A program made the position numbers and the translations under genes. The notes beneath the pieces are model-generated. The model ran no database searches, was not told the origin of the DNA, and worked only from the letters and a program-made list of their open reading frames with translations. Source: Rubripirellula amarantea (lineage in GTDB: Bacteria; Planctomycetota; Planctomycetia; Pirellulales; Pirellulaceae). Taken from it: 64,000 nucleotides of DNA. How positions within the stretch are numbered: the stretch's first letter is position 1; the number at the start of each line of letters is the position of its first letter. The stretch covers positions 3,223,406-3,287,405 of the forward strand of contig NZ_SJPI01000001.1 in assembly GCF_007859865.1 (NCBI RefSeq). Reading direction: 5' to 3'. Positions 49,215 through 61,453 of this stretch are shown one piece after another.

Positions 49215-50561
49215 ATGAACCGACAACTCTCTTTTATCGCCTCTGCTTTCGTCATCGTCGCTGGCATTGTGCCGCTCGTGCGAGCAGACAATTCATCGAC
49301 GGTCTCTGACAAGCCTCGGATAATCACCACCACCGACCTTGGTGCGGACCCGGATGACGAACAATCCCTTGTCCGCTTGTTGGTGAGCGCCAACGAATTT
49401 GAAATGGAGGGGCTAATCGTTGCGACGGGGTGTTGGAAAAAGTCGCAAGCCGACACGAAGATGCTCGACAAAATCGTCGATGCCTACGGTGAGTGCGTTG
49501 ACAATTTGAGAGTCCACGCAGAGGGTTACCCTTCGCTGGAGTATCTGCGATCGATTTCCGTGATGGGGCAAACCGGCTACGGTATGAGTGACGTCGGCGA
49601 AGGAAAAGATAGTCCCGGTTCTGACATGATTATCGCGTCGGTTGACAAGGACGATCCGCGTCCGGTTTGGGTTGGTTGCTGGGGAGGCGCGAACAACGTC
49701 GCACAGGCAATTTGGAAAGTGCGGGCGACTCGAACGCAAGCAGAACTCGAGTCTTTCCTGTCGAAAATGCGCGTGTTTGATATTCTCGGCCAAGACGATG
49801 CGGGAGCTTGGATTGCGAAGAACTTTCCCGACCTTTTCTATATCCGCGCAACCGGGGTTTATGGTTGGCAGCCATCGGATGAAAACCTCGACAATCACAT
49901 CCAAAACCATGGTCCGCTCGGGGCGGTTTATCCCGATCGCAAGTGGGCGACCGAAGGGGATACTCCGGCCTTCATGCACGTATACCCCAACGGTTTGAAC
50001 GATCCTGATAAGGTAGACCAGGGTGGCTGGGGCGGTCGGTTTAGTACGACCAAGATAGCCGGGATACGCAGCATGAAGCCAGTCACCAATGAAGGCGACT
50101 TCGATCCTTATTTGATGTATGGCAATACGTCCGAAGGAAGCAAGGCAATTAAACGCTGGAGCGACGCCTACGACAACGACTTCGCTGCTCGCATGGATTG
50201 GACCATCACCAGCCAACGATCGGACGCGAATCATCATCCCATTGCCGTTTTGAATGGTGACAGGACACGCCGCGTGTTGGACATCTCGGCCACTCCGGGA
50301 GGCACCGTGGATCTCAACGCCGATGGATCGAGCGACCCTGATAACGATGCATTGACATATGCATGGTCGTTCTACGAAGAGCCCAGTTCCTACGACGGCG
50401 AAGTGAAAATTCAGGGCGATTCGGACTTGTCTGCAAGCGTGGCTATCCCGTCCGCCGCGGCGGGTAAGACCTTACACATCATTTTGGAAGTCCACGACGA
50501 CGGGGAACCTCGTTTGTACGCGTATCGTCGTGTGATCATCCAAGTTGAGGCTGCGAAGTAA
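49215..50561 (+). CDS. Secreted DUF1593 protein with PKD-like tail (copy 2)
   Basis: 448 residues with the same plan as the copy at 39269: signal peptide ending VPLVRA, then TTDLGADPDDEQSLVRLLVS, VGCWGGANNVAQAIWKV, FDILGQDDAGAWIAKNFPD, and a C-terminal PKD-like segment (TVDLNADGSSDPDNDALTY). The two share nearly every family motif but are different enough that they did not arise by a recent duplication. It follows rbsK on the same strand. It may release sugar from a furanosyl substrate for the transporter; no activity is shown by sequence alone. Confidence 0.82.
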   Translation: MNRQLSFIASAFVIVAGIVPLVRADNSSTVSDKPRIITTTDLGADPDDEQSLVRLLVSANEFEMEGLIVATGCWKKSQADTKMLDKIVDAYGECVDNLRVHAEGYPSLEYLRSISVMGQTGYGMSDVGEGKDSPGSDMIIASVDKDDPRPVWVGCWGGANNVAQAIWKVRATRTQAELESFLSKMRVFDILGQDDAGAWIAKNFPDLFYIRATGVYGWQPSDENLDNHIQNHGPLGAVYPDRKWATEGDTPAFMHVYPNGLNDPDKVDQGGWGGRFSTTKIAGIRSMKPVTNEGDFDPYLMYGNTSEGSKAIKRWSDAYDNDFAARMDWTITSQRSDANHHPIAVLNGDRTRRVLDISATPGGTVDLNADGSSDPDNDALTYAWSFYEEPSSYDGEVKIQGDSDLSASVAIPSAAAGKTLHIILEVHDDGEPRLYAYRRVIIQVEAAK

Positions 50562-50592
50562 AGCTAGCTGCGTAAGCTGGCCGAAACCGGTT

Positions 50593-51597
50593 CTACTTCA
50601 ACGCATTCATTCTTGCTTTCCAGTCGCGAAGATAGTCATGACGCCAGCGATTGACTGTCTTCGCTCCGTCACGATTATTTTCGCGAAGCTCCGCCTTAGG
50701 GCTGTCGGTCCAGTAATGCGGACCGTGTTCGGTTGCAAAGAACGAGCCACCCCAGTGTTCGCCGGTCGGATCCTCCGGTGGACCCTTCAGCAGATAAAGC
50801 AGTGACGGCGTGTCCCCCATTTTGATGTCGCGTTTCTTGTTCCAAAACAGTTCGCCCAGCGCCCCGTGGTTTCGAACGTTGCGTTTGACGAATTCGAGAT
50901 TGCCCCATTCGCCGTCCTGTTTGCCGCCCATGTACATTCCCCGAAATGTCGTGTTACTTTCGATCCACCAAAGGTCAGTGTGCCTGTTAAACAGGAAGTC
51001 TCGAGCGGCTTGGTCGTGTCGAGTGTTCCAGGAACCGATCGAGTACACGCGAAGCTTGTCCTTGATCGAAGGATCATCGTGGACGGCTTGAGCAACATCG
51101 GTGATGCTGCCCCAAACAAGAATCCAAAGCGGACGGTCGTCGTTTGCTTTTGCTCGCTGGACGATCAACCGTGAACCGTTGGTTGGTTGACTCCAGCCTT
51201 TCGCAGGCGCAGCTTCGATGGCACCTTGGACGGCGATGTCACGCAGTGCTTGAGGTGTGGGGTATTGGTTACCCGAGTTTCGTTGCAGGCGAGGAAAGTC
51301 AGCTTCGTAGGCATCAATGACCTCAGCGATATGCTTCACGCGGCCCTCATGAGGCGGTGACGAAATGATCCCTTCGAGGTCGAGCACGTCCGCGTAAAGC
51401 AACAGGTGGACTAGCGATTGGAAGTCGTCTGGGTCCGATCCGCCAATGTCCGTCGAAACAATCACTCGCGGGTGATCGCCCGCCAACGCTCCCTCACCCG
51501 TTGCCACGTTGCCTTGGTCGGCGCTCGCGGTTGGTTGGTAAACGAATCCAATGAAAAGCACAAAGCAGGACAATATGCGAGCAAGGGTAAAAAGCAT
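50593..51597 (-). CDS. DUF1593-type protein without PKD tail (copy 3)
   Basis: 334 residues from the ATG at 51597 (MLFTLARILSCFVLFIGFVY signal). The first motif is STDIGGSDPDDFQSLVHLLL, with one more residue before the PDD than in copies 1 and 2, followed by ILVWGSITDVAQAVHDD and LRVYSIGSWNTRHDQAARDF. It stops at the point where the other copies go on to the PKD-like region. It is transcribed toward copy 2, with 31 bases between stops, and follows the GH51 gene by 96 bases on the same strand. The longer frame from 51630 adds eleven residues. Confidence 0.8.
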   Translation of the reverse strand: MLFTLARILSCFVLFIGFVYQPTASADQGNVATGEGALAGDHPRVIVSTDIGGSDPDDFQSLVHLLLYADVLDLEGIISSPPHEGRVKHIAEVIDAYEADFPRLQRNSGNQYPTPQALRDIAVQGAIEAAPAKGWSQPTNGSRLIVQRAKANDDRPLWILVWGSITDVAQAVHDDPSIKDKLRVYSIGSWNTRHDQAARDFLFNRHTDLWWIESNTTFRGMYMGGKQDGEWGNLEFVKRNVRNHGALGELFWNKKRDIKMGDTPSLLYLLKGPPEDPTGEHWGGSFFATEHGPHYWTDSPKAELRENNRDGAKTVNRWRHDYLRDWKARMNALK

Positions 51598-51693
51598 GTT
51601 TGATTTCAAAGGGACAAGGCGGGACGCCAAAGGCTCAGTTTGGGAGCTAGCTTTCTCTGTTCCAAGACGATCTTTTCGGCGGGCGCAACGTTG

Positions 51694-53310
51694 TTACTTC
51701 GAATGAGTTGCGGACACCGTCGAAACACTGGCCGGAGGAAGCAAGAACTGTACCGTGTTGCCGACAGTTTTTAAATTCGAAATGGATCGAGGTTGAACGG
51801 CATCCGGAGTGTCGAACGTATTGTGGCCATCTAGTCGATCGGAGCGTAGTACTCGCCCATTCACATGGTCGAGGCTGTTTCCGGCGTAAGTGATTTCAAC
51901 AGGGTACGCATCGGTCGGTGACGTGTTCACCAGCGATACGGTAATCGTCCCATCGGTCGCAAGCGATGCCGAGGCGGATACCGCGTCGATCGAGTTGATC
52001 CAAGGCTTGCCTGGTTGTGCGTCTGCTTTAAAGCTTGAAGGGGGATTAAGCGGTGGCGCTTCGGCGCTATCGCACGTGTAGATAGGGCTTTCGAAAGTCA
52101 ATGGAATATGGCTGGAGCCCTGATGAACTTTGTACATCTCAAAGACGTGATACGTCGGGGTCAGTAAGATCTCGTCGTCGCGTGTCAGGATCATTGCCTG
52201 CAACACATTGACGACTTGCGCGATGTTGCCCATCGTGATGCGATCCGCATGTTCGTGGAAGATATGAAGGAACAGTGCAGCGGAAACGGCGTCGCGTATC
52301 GAGTTTTGTTGGTACAAGGCAGACGGCGTGTCAGTCCCCGGGTCATACCATGTGCCCCATTCATCAACGTACAGATCAAGACGCTTGTCAGGATCCGATT
52401 CGTCGAGGATAGCGATGTAATCCTCGATCAATTCCTTCACTTGATAGGTCTGCTGCATGACAGAGAACCATTCCGATTCAGGAAAATTCAATGCGGATCC
52501 TTTGACGTTCCAATCGGAATTGGGGAGCACGTAATAGTGCATGCTGAACGCGTCCGCGTGCTCGTGAGCGTTGCCCACGAGTGTCTTCATGAACGGCAAA
52601 TCACGGCCACTAGGTCCGTTGGCGACTTTAGTGATGCGGTTGCCGCTGAAGTCGCGAACGTAGGTGGCGTAGCGGCGATACAAATCCGAATAGTACTCGG
52701 CGGTCATGTTCCCACCGCATCCCCAATTTTCGTTTCCCACACCGAAGTATTTGACTCGCCAAGGCTTCTCTCGACCATTCTTGCGACGCAACTGCGCGAG
52801 TTCGCTTTGCGAATCGCTTGTCATGTACTCGACCCATTCTCGCATTTCTTCGACGGTACCTGATCCCACGTTGCCAGCCACGTAGGCTTCGCAGTCAAGG
52901 AGTTCGCAAAGATCCAGGAACTCGTGGGTGCCAAACGCGTTCGTCTCTTCGCCACCCCAGTAGATATTCAAGGTGCGTGGTCGTTGATCTCGCTGGCCGA
53001 TTCCATCTCGCCAGTGGTAGTCGTCAGCGAAGCAACCGCCAGGCCAGCGTAGTACAGGGACTTTTAGCTGTTTCAGAGCTTCAAGTACGTCTTTTCGATA
53101 GCCGCGAACGTTAGGTAAATTCGATTCAGGACCCACCCACAAACCGCCGTAAATGCATCCCCCTAAATGTTCGGCGAACTGTCCGTAAATCTCTGGTGCA
53201 ATGGTGTGGTCGGTTTGTGAAGGATCCACCGTGATCTTAATCTGGCATAGGGCGGGAGTCGCAGTGAGAAAAGACAGACAGCCCAGTAATAGATAACGCA
53301 GGGTTCGCAT
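51694..53310 (-). CDS. Secreted GH51 alpha-L-arabinofuranosidase
   Basis: 538 residues from ATG 53310, with a signal peptide ending ATPALC. GH51 landmarks: IYGQFAEHLGGCIYGGLW, LRWPGGCFADDYHWRDGIG, acid/base E194 in GVGNENWG, and nucleophile E317 in YVDEWGTWYD, then a C-terminal beta domain (GTITVSLVNTSPTDAYPVEI). It removes arabinofuranosyl side groups from arabinoxylan or arabinan. It is exported, unlike most intracellular GH51 enzymes. The frame reaches 53427 but those residues lie in the region of direct repeats and are not signal-like. Confidence 0.93.
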   Translation of the reverse strand: MRTLRYLLLGCLSFLTATPALCQIKITVDPSQTDHTIAPEIYGQFAEHLGGCIYGGLWVGPESNLPNVRGYRKDVLEALKQLKVPVLRWPGGCFADDYHWRDGIGQRDQRPRTLNIYWGGEETNAFGTHEFLDLCELLDCEAYVAGNVGSGTVEEMREWVEYMTSDSQSELAQLRRKNGREKPWRVKYFGVGNENWGCGGNMTAEYYSDLYRRYATYVRDFSGNRITKVANGPSGRDLPFMKTLVGNAHEHADAFSMHYYVLPNSDWNVKGSALNFPESEWFSVMQQTYQVKELIEDYIAILDESDPDKRLDLYVDEWGTWYDPGTDTPSALYQQNSIRDAVSAALFLHIFHEHADRITMGNIAQVVNVLQAMILTRDDEILLTPTYHVFEMYKVHQGSSHIPLTFESPIYTCDSAEAPPLNPPSSFKADAQPGKPWINSIDAVSASASLATDGTITVSLVNTSPTDAYPVEITYAGNSLDHVNGRVLRSDRLDGHNTFDTPDAVQPRSISNLKTVGNTVQFLLPPASVSTVSATHSK

Positions 53311-53362
53311 CGGTTCGCATTGGGAATAGGGTTCAGGAATGGCGAGCACGTTTAGACGTCGC

Positions 53363-53405
53363 GGCCACATGTCGAGGTCACATTCAGTGGCCACATGTCG
53401 CGGTC
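53363..53405. promoter_or_regulatory. Direct repeats upstream of the GH51 gene
   Basis: GGCCACATGTCG occurs at 53363-53374 and 53389-53400, starts 26 bases apart, both followed by a GGTC. Spacing of about two and a half helical turns and a position about 55 bases before the start codon suggest binding sites for an activator or repressor. Confidence 0.45.
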
Positions 53406-53540
53406 GAATTTCGTGGGCAGGTGGCAAGCGATGGTTGCATCAGCCTTTGATCAAGTCATCTGACGACATCAACACTTTCCGCCTGTTATCCGTGGTGCTT
53501 GCCAGTCCGCCGTGGCGGGGAATGGCAAAACTCGGCGAAA

Positions 53541-55052
53541 TCAAGCAATCACGTCGTTGATCACTTTGGCCGGTAATACACCCGTGAGCTTTTGATCGAG
53601 ACCCTGGAAGGGATACGAGAATTTGTTGTGGTCGATGCCCAGTAATCTTTGCATCGTTGCGTGGAAGTCGCGCACGTGGACGGGGTTCTGGGCGGCCGTG
53701 TACCCAACGTCATCTGTTTCACCGTAGCTATAACCCGGCTTCACACCGCCACCGGCCATCCACAACGTGAACGCACCAGGGTTATGGTCGCGTCCGATGT
53801 AAGTCATCTTGGTTCCCCCGCGATTTTCCTGCATGGGCGTTCGACCAAACTCACCACTCCAAACCACAAGCGTGTCCTTCAGCATGTCGCGTTGCTTAAG
53901 GTCTCGAAGAAGCGCCGCGATAGGTTGATCGACTTGTTTGCATTTGTCTTTGAAGCCTGCGTTGAGTGCTTCGTTCTTGTCGGCTCCATGCGAATCCCAG
54001 CCCCAATCGAAAAGCTGAATGAATCGCACCCCACGCTCCGCAAGTCGGCGAGCAAGCAAGCAGTTGTTAGCGAACGATTCCTGGCCTGGCTCAGTGCCGT
54101 ACATGTCGTGGATGTGTTGCGGTTCGCTGTTGATATCCATGACTTCCGGCACGGCCGTTTGCATTCGGAATGCCATTTCGTACTGCGCGATCCGCGTGAT
54201 TGTCTCTGGATCGCCGTACGTTTGATGAGATTCCATGTTGAGTCGGTTCAAAGTATCCAGCATGGTTCGCCGCTGGTTGCGTGAGATATCACCGGGGTTC
54301 TCGATGTTCAACACGGGCGACCCCTTCGACCGACATTGGACTCCTTGATACACCGACGGAAGAAAACCACTACTCCATAGCGCCTTACCCACACGTGGTT
54401 GCCGCCCGCCCGAGAGCAACACCATGAAGCCGGGAAGATCCTCGTTTTCGCTTCCAAGTCCCCATGTGACCCAGGATCCGATGGAAGGGTATCCCATGCG
54501 AGCTTGCCCGGTGTGCACCATCAGTTGCGCAGGACCGTGATTGAACTGATCCGTTTGCATCGTCTTAATGAAACAAAGGTCGTCCACTTGCTCGGACAAA
54601 TGAGGCATCCGATCGGACACCCAGGTACCGCTTTGACCGTGCTGCGAAAACTTGTATTGCGGCCCGAGCATCATGGGAGTGCCTTGGATGAAGGCGAAAC
54701 GTTTGCCTTCCAAAAAAGATTGGGGACACGGTTTTCCGTCCAATCGCTCTAGGTCGGGTTTGTAGTCGAAGAGTTCGAGTTGGCTCGGGGCGCCAATCAT
54801 GTGAAGGTAGATCACTCGCTTCGCCTTGGCGGGAAGCGGCGATTCGATTGCGCTTAGAGGATTGTTGTCCGCGTGTCGCGGAACGAATGCCTCACTGGCT
54901 CTGGCGGCGCCATGCGTTTGCGATGCTAACCACAGAGCACCAAGACCGGTCGTGCAATTCTGGAGAAACTGACGTCGCGAATCGCTCGCCAATTTCTGAC
55001 AAAACGCATGAGCCGCGTGAGACGTGTCGCTCGAGTTGGTTGTCTTTTTCAT
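53541..55052 (-). CDS. DUF1501 domain protein
   Basis: 503 residues. A Tat-like N-terminus (SRRQFLQNCTTGLGALWLAS) and the sulfatase/phosphatase-like core: RVIYLHMIGAPSQLELFDYK, LCFIKTMQTDQFNHGPAQL, RFIQLFDWGWDSHGADKN, TLVVWSGEFGRTPMQENR. Hundreds of planctomycete genomes pair this family with PSCyt1/DUF1549/DUF1553 genes; the function remains unknown. The stop of the PSCyt1 gene is six bases upstream, so they are coupled. Exported, probably to the periplasm. Confidence 0.92.
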   Translation of the reverse strand: MKKTTNSSDTSHAAHAFCQKLASDSRRQFLQNCTTGLGALWLASQTHGAARASEAFVPRHADNNPLSAIESPLPAKAKRVIYLHMIGAPSQLELFDYKPDLERLDGKPCPQSFLEGKRFAFIQGTPMMLGPQYKFSQHGQSGTWVSDRMPHLSEQVDDLCFIKTMQTDQFNHGPAQLMVHTGQARMGYPSIGSWVTWGLGSENEDLPGFMVLLSGGRQPRVGKALWSSGFLPSVYQGVQCRSKGSPVLNIENPGDISRNQRRTMLDTLNRLNMESHQTYGDPETITRIAQYEMAFRMQTAVPEVMDINSEPQHIHDMYGTEPGQESFANNCLLARRLAERGVRFIQLFDWGWDSHGADKNEALNAGFKDKCKQVDQPIAALLRDLKQRDMLKDTLVVWSGEFGRTPMQENRGGTKMTYIGRDHNPGAFTLWMAGGGVKPGYSYGETDDVGYTAAQNPVHVRDFHATMQRLLGIDHNKFSYPFQGLDQKLTGVLPAKVINDVIA

Positions 55053-55058
55053 GGTCCG

Positions 55059-57923
55059 CTATTTGGTCAAAGTTTCATCTAGGTTCAGCAAAACGCTGGC
55101 GACCGCTTCCATTGCGGCTGCGTTCTTTAGATCGTCGTAAGTTTCGGCGAGCGCGATCAATTCGTTCAGTTCACGCTGATTCGGTTCACGACAGGTGACA
55201 ACGATGAAGCCAAATTTGATTTGATCGGCAAGCGATTCGCCGCTTTGCTTCATTCGTTTGGCCAGCCCCGTGGTGCATTCGGCAAAGGTTTGGTCGTTAA
55301 GCATCATCAACGCCTGCAGCGGCGTATTGGAACGCAAACGACGCGGAGCGCAGAACTCTCGAGACGGTGAATCAAAGGAAGCGAACATCGGATAGGGAAT
55401 GCTGCGTTTGGTGTACGTGTAAATGGAACGGCGGTAGCGATTGGGATCACCCACTTCGGCGGTGTTCCATTTGTCCCATGATGCAAACGGGTTCCAGACG
55501 CCTTCTGGAATCGCTGGCCGCACCGGATACCCGCCTACTTGCTCGGTTAACAATCCCGCGCAAGCTAACGCTTGGTCTCGAACGATCTCGGCCGGCAATC
55601 GGTGTCGTGGTCCGCGAGCAAGCAACCGGTTCTGTTGATCACGCTCATGCAACTCAGGGCGTATTGCAGAGTCTTGTCGGTACGTGCTGGAAAGAATGAT
55701 CTCGCGAATCGCCGGTTTGAAGCGAGAATCATGTTCGTTTTGAAATCGCAGCGCCAAGTGATCCAGTAGATCGGGGTGCGATGGACGCTCGCCTGATGTT
55801 CCGAAGTCTTCTTCCGTAGCGACTAGTCCGGTTCCGAACAAAATCGCCCAGACCCGATTGATGGCCACTCGAGAGGTCAACGGGTTCTCTTTGCTCGTCA
55901 ACCATTCTGCCAATGCCATCCGGTTCGCTTTGCCATCCGGCAGCGGCGGAAGCGACGCGGGAGTTCCGGGCGTGACGGGTTCGCCTTTGGTTAGGAACAG
56001 ACCACGAATGAAAACGTGCGAAGGCCGTCGGAATTCTTCCGCACGTTCTTTCAGGATAGGCGTGGCTGTCGATTTGATTTTGCTCCGCTGTTCTTTAAGT
56101 TCAGCTAGTTCAATTCGCTGGTCGACCGTATCAGAGACTAAGCTTGTGAACTGCTCATTGTCAGCTAGATCTATCCGTCCGCGACGCGCCACCAAGGGAA
56201 AAGCAGACAGAATGAATTCGTCAAATCGAAGCGACACCTGTAGCTGCGCATCGAGCGGAACTTCCGTGGGTTGCTTGAGCACGAACGCTGCGGAACGTGG
56301 ATAATGGATCCGCGTGAACGCAGCAAATCCGCTCTTGCTTTTTTCGTCAAGGCTATCTTGGGGATCGTGATGAGGGGTGGGCTCATCCACCAATACACGT
56401 TCAAACTCGATCAAGCCCGAGTCCATTTGACCCGGGATGATCCATCTAGCTTCCAGGTGCGATAAAACAAAACCCCATTCGGAATCCGAAACCGCTTTCG
56501 CTAAGTCGAGCGGCATCCCGGTGAATTTTAATGCTGTGATACGCTTCATTCCCTCGGGGACATCAGAGAGCAATGTGATAGTCGTCCCGCGAGAGACGGT
56601 ATCTACGGTGTGATACTCGGCGTGATTTGACTTTGCATCCACCACGACCTTGGTCGAGTTGTTCGTCGAGACAGTCATCGATTCAATGGGATGCCATAAC
56701 TGATCGTTCTGGATTAACTCATTTTCACGTTCCCAAAGAGTGTTGTTGAGCGTCTCGATCTTGCAATCGAGATCAAGTGCTTCGTCAGCATCGCCGTCGT
56801 CCACTGGAACGTCCACGGTCGGCCAATCATCATCGAGGTCACTGTCGCAGGTGTTGTTAAAGAACGCTGCGAACTTGTAATACTCTTCGTGCTTGAATGG
56901 ATCGTAGGGGTGGCTGTGACACTGCACGCACCCAAAGGTAACACCCTGCCATGCTTGCCAGGTTGTATTGACACGGTCCAGGACGGCCGCAACGCGAAAC
57001 TCTTCGTCGTCGGTGCCGCCTTCCTCATTAGATTGACTTAAACGATGTGCGGCGGTTGCAACGAGATCGTCAAAGGTTCGATCAGGCAATAAATCACCCG
57101 CAATTTGTTTGACCGTGAAGTCGGTGTACGGCATGTCGCTGTTGAATGCGTTAATCACCCAGTCTCGATATTTCCAAACGCTGCGAGGACCATCCATGCC
57201 CAGTCCTCGCGAATCGGCATAACGAACTTGGTCCAACCAAACGCTGGCCCATCGTTCACCATAGGCGGGCGAATTGAGTAGTCGATCGGCGACCGCTTCG
57301 TAGGCCGCATCACCTCGCGCATCGACATCCGACAAGAATTCTTGGCGGTCGGTCGGCGATGGTGGCAACCCCGTCACGTCAAGTGTGGCTCGGCGCAACC
57401 AACGTTCGGGGCTGTCCTGGGGAGCGGGGGCAATCTGTTCCGCTTCGAGTCGGGCTAACACGAAATGATCGAGCGATTGCTTGGCCCATTGCGCATCGTT
57501 GTTGCTCGGCACCTCGGGATCCTTTGGCGTCTCGTATGCCCAATGGCCTCGCCATTGAGCACCTTGCTCGATCCAACGCCGAAGCAATGCAATCTCGGAC
57601 GCATCGAGTTTCGAGCCGTGGTCCGGTGGCGGCATCATCACGTCCGGATCGTCGGATTCGATCCGTTCGATCATAATCGAAGCGTCGGGATCTCCCGGTT
57701 CGACCACCCAACCATCAGGCGGCAGCACAGCTTCAGCATTGACGAACGACACGTCGCCAGCCGCCTTCACTCCGCCATGACATGCCGTGCAATGACGTGT
57801 AAAGATTGGCCGAATCTGTTCATTAAAGTTGATCTCCTCATCTGCGTTCGCACTCGCTCCAACGATCATCGAAAGCGTGGCAAGAATGCAAGAGATAAGG
57901 CATCGGACGTTGAGACTGGTCAT
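55059..57923 (-). CDS. PSCyt1/DUF1549/DUF1553 planctomycete cytochrome-type protein
   Basis: 954 residues. Signal peptide ending GASANA, a heme-type C-T-A-C-H near residue 46 (RHCTACHGGVKAAGDV), a DUF1549 domain (DHFVLARLEAEQIAPAPQ; LRRATLDVTGLPPSPTDRQE; CVQCHSHPYDPFKHEEYYKF with a second CxxCH) and DUF1553 (AVAINRVWAILFGTGLVATE; SDLAKRMKQSGESL region). The family is planctomycete-specific in number; it may be an extracellular complex that binds or oxidises polysaccharide, which is unproven. It lies between the trimodular xylanase and DUF1501, gaps of eight and six bases. Confidence 0.93.
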   Translation of the reverse strand: MTSLNVRCLISCILATLSMIVGASANADEEINFNEQIRPIFTRHCTACHGGVKAAGDVSFVNAEAVLPPDGWVVEPGDPDASIMIERIESDDPDVMMPPPDHGSKLDASEIALLRRWIEQGAQWRGHWAYETPKDPEVPSNNDAQWAKQSLDHFVLARLEAEQIAPAPQDSPERWLRRATLDVTGLPPSPTDRQEFLSDVDARGDAAYEAVADRLLNSPAYGERWASVWLDQVRYADSRGLGMDGPRSVWKYRDWVINAFNSDMPYTDFTVKQIAGDLLPDRTFDDLVATAAHRLSQSNEEGGTDDEEFRVAAVLDRVNTTWQAWQGVTFGCVQCHSHPYDPFKHEEYYKFAAFFNNTCDSDLDDDWPTVDVPVDDGDADEALDLDCKIETLNNTLWERENELIQNDQLWHPIESMTVSTNNSTKVVVDAKSNHAEYHTVDTVSRGTTITLLSDVPEGMKRITALKFTGMPLDLAKAVSDSEWGFVLSHLEARWIIPGQMDSGLIEFERVLVDEPTPHHDPQDSLDEKSKSGFAAFTRIHYPRSAAFVLKQPTEVPLDAQLQVSLRFDEFILSAFPLVARRGRIDLADNEQFTSLVSDTVDQRIELAELKEQRSKIKSTATPILKERAEEFRRPSHVFIRGLFLTKGEPVTPGTPASLPPLPDGKANRMALAEWLTSKENPLTSRVAINRVWAILFGTGLVATEEDFGTSGERPSHPDLLDHLALRFQNEHDSRFKPAIREIILSSTYRQDSAIRPELHERDQQNRLLARGPRHRLPAEIVRDQALACAGLLTEQVGGYPVRPAIPEGVWNPFASWDKWNTAEVGDPNRYRRSIYTYTKRSIPYPMFASFDSPSREFCAPRRLRSNTPLQALMMLNDQTFAECTTGLAKRMKQSGESLADQIKFGFIVVTCREPNQRELNELIALAETYDDLKNAAAMEAVASVLLNLDETLTK

Positions 57924-57931
57924 GTGCTATT

Positions 57932-60900
57932 TCAAAGGCCCGGGTTTCCGGTGGGCGGGGGTGCCTGATCTGACGCGGCCGGCGAGCCCAATAGTTGCTC
58001 TAGGACGGGACGCAATGCCTTGCCCCATACCACGTAGCCAGCCTTTTCAAGATGAATTCCGTCCGTGGAAACGTCAGGTCTTAGTTTACCATCAGGGCCC
58101 AGCAATTCCCAGTTGATATTGATCCAATGGATCCGCGCATCGTCGTCGCTGAACGCTTTGAGTCGGTGATTAATCGCAGCAATCGTTTCACTCAGTTCTG
58201 CATTTTGATCACGGGGAAACATCGCAGTTAGCACGATCGGCACCTCTGGGAATCGCTTTCGAAACTCAGCAACGATCGCCTGAATGCCATCTACGACATC
58301 GTCCACGTGCGAATCAGTCGCCGGTCCGGTCCAAGGCAAGTTGTTGGCGCCGGCTTGAAGGCACACAACTTTGGGTGACACACCCTCAAGTTCCCCGTTC
58401 TGCATTCGCCACAGCATGTGGTGCGTGCTGTCGCCGCCCCAAGCAAAGTTGGCTGCGTTCCATCCGTAGAAAGTTTCGTTCCAATGCTGAAGCAGTTCGG
58501 GATAGTCGGTTGCGCCCCAACGACGCGTGATCGAGTCGCCTTGAAAGTAGACATCTACCTTCCCTTGTTGGGTCTTAGCCACGAGTTGCTTGTGCACCGC
58601 TTGCGAATTGGCATCGTTGCGTTGCCAAGGAGTATGACTCGTCGCGTTGCCATTGTTTCCGGATGGGGCGAGCTTCTCTTTGGTCAGTAGTTGATAGACT
58701 GCGTCGAACGCCGGTTTCGGGTTCCGGTCGCGATCAAACAGCAAAGGATGGTTGACTCGTTGCCAAGGAAAGTAGTTCAACCAGCTTTGGCCATCGTGAA
58801 GATTCCAGAATGATACGCGGGCGATGATGTCGCTGTAGTCGTCAAAGAGCTCGAAGAGCTTGACATACTGGTCGACCATCTGTGTTTCAACTTCCGGCGG
58901 CATGCCGTCTTGGTAGGGATCGAATGATGCGAGTTCTTCGCGATGGGCACCATCGTCCGCCCACCATTGACCGCGTTTGACCACGTCGATGTCAAGTTCC
59001 GACACTACGATCTTGATGTTGAGTTTGCGAAGTTCATCGAAGGTTTCTCGAAGTTCGGACAGCGAATTGTCACCGAGTTCGAAGTGTCCTTGCATCCCGT
59101 AGGCGTCAACCGGTGCGCCTGCCGCCTTAAGCTTCGTTAGAAGTTCGATCAGCTTTTTTCGTTTGCCAGGTTTGTGGCCGTTGTAGTCATTGTAAATCAG
59201 CAACGCTTCAGGGTCCGATGCTCGAGCGGTTTTGAAAGCAGTGACAATGAAGTCCATGCCCGCAGTTCGTGAGTAAACCGAGTCACGTAGCAAACCGTCC
59301 TGACCATCTCCAATGGCTTCGTTGACAACGTCCCAATGGGTGGCCACGTCGGCATAGCGATCGACCACCGTTTTGACGTGAAGTTCAATTCGTTGCAACA
59401 ATTTCTCTCGCGATACGGGTAGGTCACCTTCGCTCATCATCCACGGGTCCGTACGATCATCCTTTGCCCAAACGAGACAATGCCCGACCATCTCTAGATT
59501 GTTTTTTCGAACGAAGTCTGCAAACCGATCGGTCGCTTCGAAACGCCAGCGATCTTCTGCAGGATGAATTCCTTGCGGCTTCATGCAGTTTTCAGGAGTC
59601 AGAATCTCGAAATGCTGACGAATCAACGCAGCGTCATCAGAGTTTTCAAGCACACGGTGTCCAACTCCGACTCCAACCTTGAATCGCGATCCGACGGCAT
59701 CTTTGAGCGATCGCCGATCCATCGATGATGACACGCTTTCCGCGTCGCTGTCGTCAACGCCGGGAAGTCCAGTCGGGCCAAATGGGTAAGTCGTGATGGC
59801 GATTCGATCCAGATGCGCTCCGTCTTCCCGATAGGCCATCGTCAAAGTATGCATTCCCGGCTTCAGAGCTACCACGGTGAGTTTCACCCATTCCCATCCG
59901 TTGGTACCCAGTCCATTCGCTGCGCTGAAATGGTTGTCGTCGACCTTGATCCAAAACGAGTCGTCATCGGCCGATGGGCAATTCGCCCGGGCAAACACGT
60001 AGTACTTCTTAGCCTGCGTCGTTTCAAATGGAATTGTTATCGCGCCGGACTTGTCCGAAGGTGCCGCCTTCGGACTATTGAGTCCCGGCCTTATCGTCAA
60101 GTACTTCCCTCCAGACGCTTCGGGATCACTGATGACCTGCCAATCCGATCCATACGCTGTCGATTCGACTTCGAAATTCAATGTTTCAAGGTTCTTGCTA
60201 TCTGCTGTCGGAAAGCTTGATGTCCCCGTGGTCCAACCGTCGTACCAAAGTTCATGCTCGACGTGATCGAAGGGATGCTTCGTTATCGAGGTGTTCACGT
60301 TCGCCTTACCCAGCAAAAACTTATCCACGAAAGCCTCGACTTCGGGCCGTTGTTCGTTGGGGAGTTGGCAGTGCGGATGACCAGCGACAATCGAAAAACC
60401 AAATCGGTCTGCGATGCCAAAGGCCTTCCAAACTTCGTGAGCGGCGCGGCACGATACGTAGCCAGACTCGTCGGCCAACCACTCGTAGTCTGGATTTCCT
60501 AAGACCAGCAACGCGCGAGGGGCAACAAGGGCCATGAGCTCGTGGTGGTCGTAGGGAAGTTTCTCAACGGCACCGGCGAACTGAAACATGTCTTCTAGAA
60601 ACCAAGCATGGTTGGTCTTCCCAAGCGTTTCGACATTTCCAAGAGTCTCGGAAACACGCCATGCCGCGGCACCACCGCCGCCAGATTCCTGGGCGATGGT
60701 CAACGCAATGCGTTCGTCCAAAGCACCGGCAAACAACGCCATCTTTCCTGCAAACGAACAACCGGTGACGGCAAGATGTTGAAGGTCAATCGGCAAGTCA
60801 TCTTTGACGAGCTCCAATCCATCGATGATGCGACTTATTCCCCAAGGCCATGCGCAGTACGCACCCATCGATACTTGGTCGGGATAAAGTCGGTTGATGG

Positions 60901-61453
60901 GCTCATTGCCGCGTAGTTGCGTATGCGACATGACTTGGCTGAAGTTAAATGCGATTGTCGCAATGTTGCGACTCGCGAGAATGTCACGAGGCAGGCTACC
61001 ACTTCCCTGGCCAATTCCAATGACTGCCGGGAAAGGCCCCTCACCGTCGGGCAATTCAATCTTCGCGGTCAACGACAGCGTCTGACCATTTTCAGTCACC
61101 TCTACCTTCAACAGCCCGTCGGCGTAACTTGCGGAAATGAGCTGAGGGCGGGGTGGCTTGTTTCCAATTTCGAAGTGTTCGATTTCCGATTGAATCTCAG
61201 ATCGACGGCGGCTCCAGTCGCTGAAGGAGGTAGAGCGACCACGTCGATCAGACCACTCAAAGGGATCCGGCAATGCTCGCACCGTCGGTAGCTCTGCTAT
61301 CTCGGGCAAAGGTGGATCGGAAAATTCGGTGCCTGTGTTCTCGCTAGAGTAAACCAGCGGAATGTCTTGAGCGGGCGCACGTGGCATCACGATTGCGGTA
61401 ACCACCAGACCAATACTGAGCAGCATCAAGAACCGTTGAGTCGTGAATCGCAT
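57932..61453 (-). CDS. Trimodular secreted enzyme: CE15-like esterase, GH10 xylanase, SGNH esterase
   Basis: 1173 residues, signal peptide ending MPRAPAQ. Residues 60-385: CE15-like alpha/beta hydrolase with S233 in GCSFAGK, E256 in AQESGGGG and H361 in AGHPHCQ; the usual Arg after the Ser is Phe here. About 425-557: beta-sandwich that looks like a carbohydrate-binding module. 580-925: GH10 with acid/base E712 in WDVVNEA, nucleophile E819 in VVSELDI, and WNLHDGQSW. 940-1155: SGNH esterase with S974 in QGDSIT, G1007, N1037 and D1131/H1134 in TDGIHL. Together it could cut the xylan chain, break glucuronoyl-lignin esters and remove acetyl groups. First gene of the PSCyt1/DUF1501 operon. Confidence 0.93.
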   Translation of the reverse strand: MRFTTQRFLMLLSIGLVVTAIVMPRAPAQDIPLVYSSENTGTEFSDPPLPEIAELPTVRALPDPFEWSDRRGRSTSFSDWSRRRSEIQSEIEHFEIGNKPPRPQLISASYADGLLKVEVTENGQTLSLTAKIELPDGEGPFPAVIGIGQGSGSLPRDILASRNIATIAFNFSQVMSHTQLRGNEPINRLYPDQVSMGAYCAWPWGISRIIDGLELVKDDLPIDLQHLAVTGCSFAGKMALFAGALDERIALTIAQESGGGGAAAWRVSETLGNVETLGKTNHAWFLEDMFQFAGAVEKLPYDHHELMALVAPRALLVLGNPDYEWLADESGYVSCRAAHEVWKAFGIADRFGFSIVAGHPHCQLPNEQRPEVEAFVDKFLLGKANVNTSITKHPFDHVEHELWYDGWTTGTSSFPTADSKNLETLNFEVESTAYGSDWQVISDPEASGGKYLTIRPGLNSPKAAPSDKSGAITIPFETTQAKKYYVFARANCPSADDDSFWIKVDDNHFSAANGLGTNGWEWVKLTVVALKPGMHTLTMAYREDGAHLDRIAITTYPFGPTGLPGVDDSDAESVSSSMDRRSLKDAVGSRFKVGVGVGHRVLENSDDAALIRQHFEILTPENCMKPQGIHPAEDRWRFEATDRFADFVRKNNLEMVGHCLVWAKDDRTDPWMMSEGDLPVSREKLLQRIELHVKTVVDRYADVATHWDVVNEAIGDGQDGLLRDSVYSRTAGMDFIVTAFKTARASDPEALLIYNDYNGHKPGKRKKLIELLTKLKAAGAPVDAYGMQGHFELGDNSLSELRETFDELRKLNIKIVVSELDIDVVKRGQWWADDGAHREELASFDPYQDGMPPEVETQMVDQYVKLFELFDDYSDIIARVSFWNLHDGQSWLNYFPWQRVNHPLLFDRDRNPKPAFDAVYQLLTKEKLAPSGNNGNATSHTPWQRNDANSQAVHKQLVAKTQQGKVDVYFQGDSITRRWGATDYPELLQHWNETFYGWNAANFAWGGDSTHHMLWRMQNGELEGVSPKVVCLQAGANNLPWTGPATDSHVDDVVDGIQAIVAEFRKRFPEVPIVLTAMFPRDQNAELSETIAAINHRLKAFSDDDARIHWININWELLGPDGKLRPDVSTDGIHLEKAGYVVWGKALRPVLEQLLGSPAASDQAPPPTGNPGL

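Follow-up and report, generated by a model that had tools for sequence, protein, structure and literature searches.

A rare predicted four-module xylanase-esterase in Rubripirellula amarantea and the arginine-less active site of its CE15 clade

The four-module gene

The stretch of DNA analyzed here, called the window throughout, comprises 64,000 nucleotides of Rubripirellula amarantea and corresponds to positions 3223406-3287405 of contig C1 (NZ_SJPI01000001.1) in a 6.95-Mb genome of nine contigs. The host family, Pirellulaceae, also holds Rhodopirellula sp. JC639. One open reading frame (ORF) of the window, which starts with ATG, encodes a protein of 1173 amino acids that combines a CE15 glucuronoyl esterase domain, a linker resembling a carbohydrate-binding module (CBM), a GH10 endo-xylanase domain, and an SGNH hydrolase domain. 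Its features are as follows.

57932..61453 (-): four-module gene (P0001), encoding the 1173-residue CE15-CBM-GH10-SGNH protein; ORF, translation, and Pfam
61370..61453 (-): probable Sec signal peptide, about residues 1-28; translation inspected by eye
60254..61276 (-): CE15 glucuronoyl esterase domain, residues 60-400; Pfam GCE_fung and match to PDB 8trx (PrCE15)
60743..60763 (-): nucleophile elbow GCSFAGK, residues 231-237, Phe234 replacing Arg; alignments
59759..60205 (-): CBM35/CBM6-like beta-sandwich module, residues 417-565; weak GH115_C match, model, and PDB folds
58694..59710 (-): GH10 endo-xylanase domain, residues 582-920, with E712 and E819; Pfam and alignment
57974..58621 (-): SGNH hydrolase domain, PAF-AH Ib-like, residues 945-1160; Pfam Lipase_GDSL_2, PDB 1bwr and 1es9

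Three Pfam families matched over their curated cut-offs, namely GCE_fung (residues 117-346, E 4e-76, 256 bits against a cut-off of 27), Glyco_hydro_10 (residues 582-920, E 6e-80), and Lipase_GDSL_2 (residues 972-1140, E 6e-21). A search of the protein against NCBIfam returned no match over cut-off. The CE15 domain possesses S233, E256, and H361, together with C232/C362, K237, and W325. GH10 membership is indicated by both the family profile and the catalytic pair E712 and E819, which is kept in all 20 aligned rows. The SGNH domain carries S974, G1006/G1007, N1038, D1131, and H1134, and blocks I, II, III, and V of the SGNH/GDSL proteins are all present. The original prediction, made from the DNA alone, had read three complete catalytic sets in one polypeptide joined by a binding-type module. 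This description stands, and at the sequence level the protein retains the catalytic residues of its CE15, GH10, and SGNH domains. The N-terminus, judged by eye, is Sec-like, and the protein is probably exported.

The CE15 active site

The CE15 domain belongs to its family by sequence, matching both GCE_fung and PrCE15. The latter is its nearest solved structure (PDB 8trx; 433 bits, E 2e-128, 54% identical). As originally predicted, the motif GCSFAGK lacks the usual Arg, and the position after the nucleophile (Ser+1) is occupied by Phe234 instead. The Arg after the CE15 nucleophile has been described as conserved (PMC11096219). Nevertheless, it is usual but not defining for the family, as the accepted members PrCE15 and Fl6 are without it. 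In PrCE15, as in 26 of 35 anaerobic-fungal sequences, the Arg of most CE15 enzymes is replaced by Tyr; PrCE15 cleaves benzyl glucuronate with an apparent kcat of 22 per second (PMC11345330). Fl6 of Flavimarina, reported without the Arg, is an active glucuronoyl esterase (PMC12247016). Because both enzymes have already been published as active, the Arg-less CE15 is a known phenomenon, and relatives without the Ser+1 Arg can be active.

The GCSFAGK motif was found in all 14 distinct close genes from the same order, including that of the window. A wider genome scan used 12 Phe rows and PrCE15 as the query, with patterns that did not contain the motif, and the best 80 of 378 reported relatives were retained. 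Ser+1 was Phe in 79 of these and Tyr in the other, a frequency that is valid for the clade from which the query was drawn and not for CE15 at large. Together with nine sequences from the search of the order, two from the search of the class, and the window, and with four duplicates dropped, the scan loci form a set of 92 rows from the Planctomycetota, Verrucomicrobiota, Bacteroidota, Rhodothermota, and Omnitrophota. S233, K237, E256, W325, H361, and both Cys residues are invariant across this set, so the catalytic triad is intact throughout. Ser+1 is Phe in 91 rows and Tyr in one, in line with the expectation that the variant would fall in a defined CE15 clade, though the query was built from that subgroup.

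In the CE15 tree, the 92 rows and PrCE15 lie apart from Cip2 and five Arg-type bacterial rows. At 90/86, the support of this branch falls below the starred level. The tree program issued a long-branch warning, and the comparison included few Arg-type rows. Ser-Arg is present in a second CE15 of the same genome (locus L010) and in the CE15 domains of L029, L037, L152, and L153; two weaker CE15 matches also occur in the genome of the window. Overall, the alignments support Phe at Ser+1 as the mark of a large CE15 subgroup. The Arg-less active site was already known, and what is new is that the Phe variant marks a large clade. Such a clade allows a direct test of the role of the oxyanion Arg.

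The CBM-like linker

The linker (about residues 417-565) was modeled as a beta-sandwich with a pLDDT (predicted local distance difference test) of 94 from an alignment of 40 sequences. Its only Pfam match was to GH115_C (E 0.0027, below cut-off), and a PDB profile search with the linker sequence gave no match better than E 0.29. When the folds were compared (Foldseek, VIA-align), the best solved matches included CBM35 and CBM6 modules and GH115 C-terminal domains. Two CBM35 structures solved with glucuronic acid, 4qb2 and 2w87, gave Z 14.4 with a root-mean-square deviation (rmsd) of 2.1 over 121 residues and Z 12.3 with an rmsd of 2.9 over 122 residues, respectively. The C-terminal domain of a GH115 alpha-glucuronidase (4zmh) reached Z 14.6 (rmsd 3.2, 142 residues), and unrelated beta-sandwich proteins reached similar values, such as 6ovb with Z 12.5 (rmsd 2.4, 123 residues). 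Because GH115 domains and unrelated beta-sandwiches score so similarly, the CBM family cannot be assigned from the fold alone. The model nonetheless confidently assigns the linker a CBM35/CBM6-type beta-sandwich fold.

The SGNH module and related fusions

The PDB sequences nearest to the SGNH domain are those of PAF acetylhydrolase Ib (1bwr, E 4e-27; 1es9, E 3e-30 in a profile search). S974 is conserved in 8 of 8 rows, D1131 and H1134 in 13 of 13, and G1007 and N1038 in 12 of 13. An assignment to the FjoAcXE type of acetyl xylan esterase, whose catalytic motif is GNSI (PMC9105624), was ruled out by the presence of GDSI in all eight aligned rows, that of the window included. The domain may still fall in a known CAZy family of acetyl xylan esterases (CE2, CE3, CE6, CE20, or others), although no chain of that name is among the 29 PDB sequences listed up to E 1. 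By analogy with its fusion partners, we infer that the module is an unclassified xylan deacetylase, mainly because the same SGNH type recurs fused to other xylan domains. If it does deacetylate xylan, it would be a candidate for a new esterase family.

These recurrences take several forms. GH10-SGNH proteins with both domains of the types found in the window occur at L050 and L051, and a GH10-SGNH-Sde182 protein of the same types occurs at L055. The GH10 and SGNH types of the window are likewise joined to Arg-type CE15 domains, as CE15-GH10 at L029 and CE15-SGNH at L037, while its SGNH type appears in AXE1-CE15(Arg)-SGNH (L152, L153) and AXE1-SGNH (L154). A GH10-Sde182 protein with a more distant GH10 type was found at L161. 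Multimodular carbohydrate-active enzymes have been reported in planctomycetes in general (PMC11131199), and bacterial CE15 domains are commonly accompanied by other carbohydrate esterase and glycoside hydrolase domains (PMC10313548). From the domain orders observed, the xylan enzymes of planctomycetes appear to shuffle their domains often, and the four-module fusion appears to have arisen in this way.

Other large fusions were observed alongside these. The genome of the window encodes a second multicatalytic xylanase, an Esterase-GH10-PETase-like protein of 1440 amino acids (L063:9913-14232(-), C1:3199912-3204231), about 19 kb before the window. Genome G184 encodes an Esterase-SASA-GH10-PETase protein of 1846 amino acids (L147), and G116 a sulfatase-GH10 protein of 870 amino acids with a more distant GH10 type (L162:4628-7237(-)). 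ThuA-DUF7133-heme proteins of 1870-1880 amino acids with a C-terminal GH10 occur in G196 (L059:4255-9864(+)) and G255 (L060:4767-10406(+)), and their GH10 domains are of the type found in the window (71% identical). This platform is common, with matches at E 1e-180 in 169 of 396 genomes; with two candidates scored per genome, G196 and G255 were the only ones with GH10 among the matches listed. In G698 (L174:24-5735(+)) and G216 (L179:1435-7398(+)) the platform instead ends in an Esterase domain, and the gene at L174 lies about 2.8 kb upstream of a four-module gene on the same strand.

Distribution and evolution of the fusion

Two overlapping sets of genomes were searched for the complete CE15-CBM-GH10-SGNH set, with scoring of the two best candidates in each genome. 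Of 396 genomes of the order, 3 carried it, as did 2 of 392 of the phylum, one of the latter being again that of the window. Four genomes in total thus carry it: that of the window (G000), Rhodopirellula sp. JC639 (G375), Roseiconus nitratireducens (G357), and one of another order (G698). Homologues with this order are therefore not common, and the original view of the arrangement as unusual was borne out. The order was not met in the literature searched on such esterases; this coverage was partial, and absence from print is not claimed. The best 80 scan loci comprise 47 with CE15 alone, 26 CE15-CBM, 3 CE15-CBM-GH10, 2 Sde182-CE15, and 2 with the full set, namely those of Rhodopirellula sp. JC639 and Roseiconus nitratireducens, where the counts cover the domains sought with the window proteins. 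At the G698 locus, a GH10 split over two overlapping frames, perhaps frameshifted, lies just upstream of the four-module gene (L174:6923-8396(+)).

On the CE15 tree, the presence of SGNH requires at least four changes and that of GH10 five. L067 is sister to L045, and L174 to L074, in both the CE15 and the GH10 tree; the members of each pair differ in their modules. The four SGNH domains cluster with that of L055 with support of 100/99. Direct traces of loss were found in two genomes of one genus, G196 and G255.

L047:10281-10609: scar of decayed GH10-to-SGNH sequence, immediately after the CE15-CBM gene
L048:10033-10350: equivalent scar, likewise immediately after the CE15-CBM gene

Each scar holds the first 50-70 residues of GH10, interrupted by stops and joined across an internal deletion to the final 42 residues of the SGNH end. 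Since the two are 92% identical in DNA, they probably record a single event. The scars show that the ancestor of G196 and G255 carried the full set. The four-module order has thus been lost at least once, and at these loci, where two modules are left of a four-module enzyme, module loss is traceable in the DNA. A relocation of GH10 from the CE15 gene to the heme protein of the same genomes was considered but is not claimed, as the scar resembles other GH10 domains no less closely than the one in the heme protein.

The search for scars covered 85 CE15 ORFs without an in-frame GH10, duplicates and one Arg-type ORF included. Neither a GH10 behind L084, distant but intact, nor a weakly matching SGNH-like remnant behind L105 (E 6e-4) was counted as a scar. 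No convincing SGNH remnant was found in the loci of five CE15-CBM-GH10 genes (L045, L046, L074, L075, and L076), where the best match (E 0.009, 33 residues) was not behind the gene. On balance, we infer that the fusion is ancestral and was followed by repeated loss; in some lineages, modules may have been gained repeatedly.

Neighboring genes

The genes that follow the four-module gene are listed below.

55059..57923 (-): PSCyt1-PSCyt2-PSD1 protein, next gene; Pfam
53541..55052 (-): DUF1501 protein; Pfam
51694..53427 (-): alpha-L-arabinofuranosidase-like protein; Pfam Alpha-L-AF_C
50593..51630 (-): Sde182_NH-like protein; Pfam
49215..50561 (+), opposite strand: second Sde182_NH-like protein; Pfam

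Only 8 bp separate the four-module gene from the PSCyt1/PSCyt2/PSD1 gene and a further 6 bp separate the latter from the DUF1501 gene on the same strand, and a simple terminator scan found no terminator-like site within these gaps. To judge by this spacing, the pair is probably cotranscribed with the four-module gene. The further claim that gene order links the pair to xylan is not supported by copy number or by the neighborhoods of the 92 CE15 loci, where the association is near the chance rate. DUF1501 has 33 matches in the genome of the window, 32 of them over cut-off, and 16-67 in each of 15 relatives, where counts near 66 are lower bounds. A PSCyt gene lies within 5 kb of CE15 at 4 of 92 loci, two of which also have DUF1501; single window proteins served as phmmer queries at E 1e-5, so very divergent copies could escape. 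All four loci fall among the PVC (Planctomycetota-Verrucomicrobiota-Chlamydiota) loci, about 34 by our count. We reckon the chance expectation at two or three loci, from one copy per about 65-425 kb and a flank of about 8.6 kb per locus.

Immediate adjacency like that in the window is repeated only in L083 among the 92 loci, where a PSCyt2/PSD1-DUF1501 pair directly precedes the CE15 gene on the same strand. In L174 such a pair lies downstream on the same strand with one gene between, and no PSCyt1 domain was found in either pair. The PSCyt gene of L096 is about 5 kb off on the opposite strand, and DUF1501 pieces in L074 are about 5.8 kb away, outside the 5-kb count.

Downstream of the CE15 gene in two other genomes, both of one genus (L047, L048), lies a homologue of the alpha-L-arabinofuranosidase-like (GH51-like) gene, and Sde182-like genes lie within 5 kb at 11 of 92 loci. 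These neighbors suit a plant-polysaccharide setting better than they do the PSCyt1/DUF1501 link. Sde182_NH-like (nucleoside-hydrolase-like) domains also adjoin or are fused to CE15 or GH10 in planctomycetes and Bacteroidota (L055, L116, L142, L161, and 49215-51630 of the window), hinting at a role for them in xylan use.

Proposed function and alternatives

Most plausibly, the four-module protein is exported and attacks acetylated (4-O-methyl)glucuronoxylan through several catalytic activities, a reading that we give a probability of about 0.7. The CBM35-like module would hold the enzyme on xylan, perhaps through uronic acid side groups. The CE15 domain, whose triad S233-H361-E256 is present, would hydrolyze esters that glucuronic acid forms with an alcohol such as lignin. 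In place of the Ser+1 Arg, either the backbone amides on their own or a different side chain would stabilize the oxyanion. The SGNH domain, given its fusion partners, would strip acetyl groups from xylan, and GH10, as expected of its family, would then cut the cleared backbone. On this reading, the protein is a candidate for a natural, compact enzyme with three activities against the most recalcitrant hemicellulose decoration.

Several observations weigh against this reading. The activities of all domains are predicted from sequence. Position 275 holds Glu in PrCE15 and in all 92 rows, whereas Cip2 has Gln there; the pocket thus differs from that of the fungal model enzyme. Neither GH10 nor SGNH accompanies CE15 in 75 of the 80 scan loci, and the fusion is therefore not required for the function of CE15. 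In the full-length model, the CE15 region is of poor quality (block means 31-64 at residues 231-420), so that the replacement of the Arg is not visible in it. Finally, none of the nearest solved relatives of the SGNH domain is named as a xylan esterase; they are PAF acetylhydrolases and GDSL proteins.

Some of these points would also fit an Arg-less CE15 acting on a different ester, such as marine algal or pectic uronate esters or those of bulky, lignin-like alcohols only, in which case the protein would combine a xylanase and an esterase with a different specificity. Benzyl and allyl glucuronate were cut by PrCE15, which was inactive on methyl glucuronate and methyl galacturonate; the Arg-bearing comparison enzymes behaved alike (PMC11345330). 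The invariant E275 and the several Bacteroidota loci of the clade without GH10 within 5 kb point the same way. However, Fl6, reported as 55.6% similar to 8TRX, is active on both methyl and allyl glucuronate (PMC12247016), and the invariant K237 (Ser+4) occupies the position of the Lys that contacts the uronate in PvCE15 (PMC10807430). In addition to the loci with an in-frame GH10, 11 of 92 have one within 5 kb, and a different ester is accordingly an unlikely target. It is similarly doubtful that the SGNH domain targets a different acyl group, or that it resembles its PAF-AH relatives in hydrolyzing lipid-like acetyl esters. None of the 29 PDB sequences listed up to E 1 in its profile search is named an acetyl xylan esterase, and the top matches are PAF-AH Ib subunits, but the same SGNH type is fused with AXE1, CE15, and GH10 in different module orders. 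Least probable by far is that the enzyme and the PSCyt1/DUF1501 pair form one machine in which the pair works on xylan: the short same-strand gaps and the similar pairs near CE15 in L083 and L174 would agree with it, but the tens of DUF1501 copies per genome and the roughly density-expected frequency of pair genes at PVC loci speak against it.

The preferred reading, an exported enzyme for acetylated glucuronoxylan, could be extended further. The SGNH domain might represent a new esterase family for this substrate, and planctomycetes might deploy a shuffled kit of esterase, xylanase, and heme-dehydrogenase-like (ThuA-DUF7133-heme) domains in giant exported proteins rather than in loci with one enzyme per gene, including an oxidative branch acting on the products. 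This extension is speculative, and we consider it improbable as a whole.

Comparison with known enzymes

Among characterized enzymes, PrCE15 of Piromyces rhizinflata (PDB 8TRX) resembles the CE15 domain of the window in lacking the Ser+1 Arg while keeping the triad and the Cys pair, but it has Tyr rather than Phe at that position. Fl6 of Flavimarina sp. Hel_I_48 is likewise reported without the Arg and with the triad kept; unlike the window protein, it carries a CBM9. In the portions of their descriptions available, neither enzyme is described with GH10 or SGNH.

The SGNH sequences closest in the PDB are the catalytic subunits of PAF acetylhydrolase Ib. These subunits are eukaryotic and intracellular, whereas the planctomycete SGNH domain is predicted to be exported and is fused to xylan enzymes. 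FjoAcXE-type enzymes are SGNH proteins with a CBM-like domain that act beside glucuronic acid (PMC9105624; PMC5863359), with GNSI as the reported catalytic motif in contrast to the GDSI of the window.

Multicatalytic proteins offer the closest architectural parallels. CkXyn10C-GE15A of Caldicellulosiruptor kristjanssonii combines GH10, CE15, and CBMs in one chain, as here, but differs in having two catalytic domains and five CBMs of families 9 and 22, and SGNH is not named in the available parts of its descriptions (PMC8280721; PMC7151638). CesA of Ruminococcus flavefaciens also joins two esterases, an acetyl xylan esterase (CE3) and CE15 (PMC11345330). It differs in that its CE15 has the Arg and its acetyl xylan esterase is of CE3 instead of the SGNH type of the window, and GH10 is not named in the part of that report available. 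Overall, the four-module protein is a real, rare example of a known multicatalytic xylanase-esterase kind.

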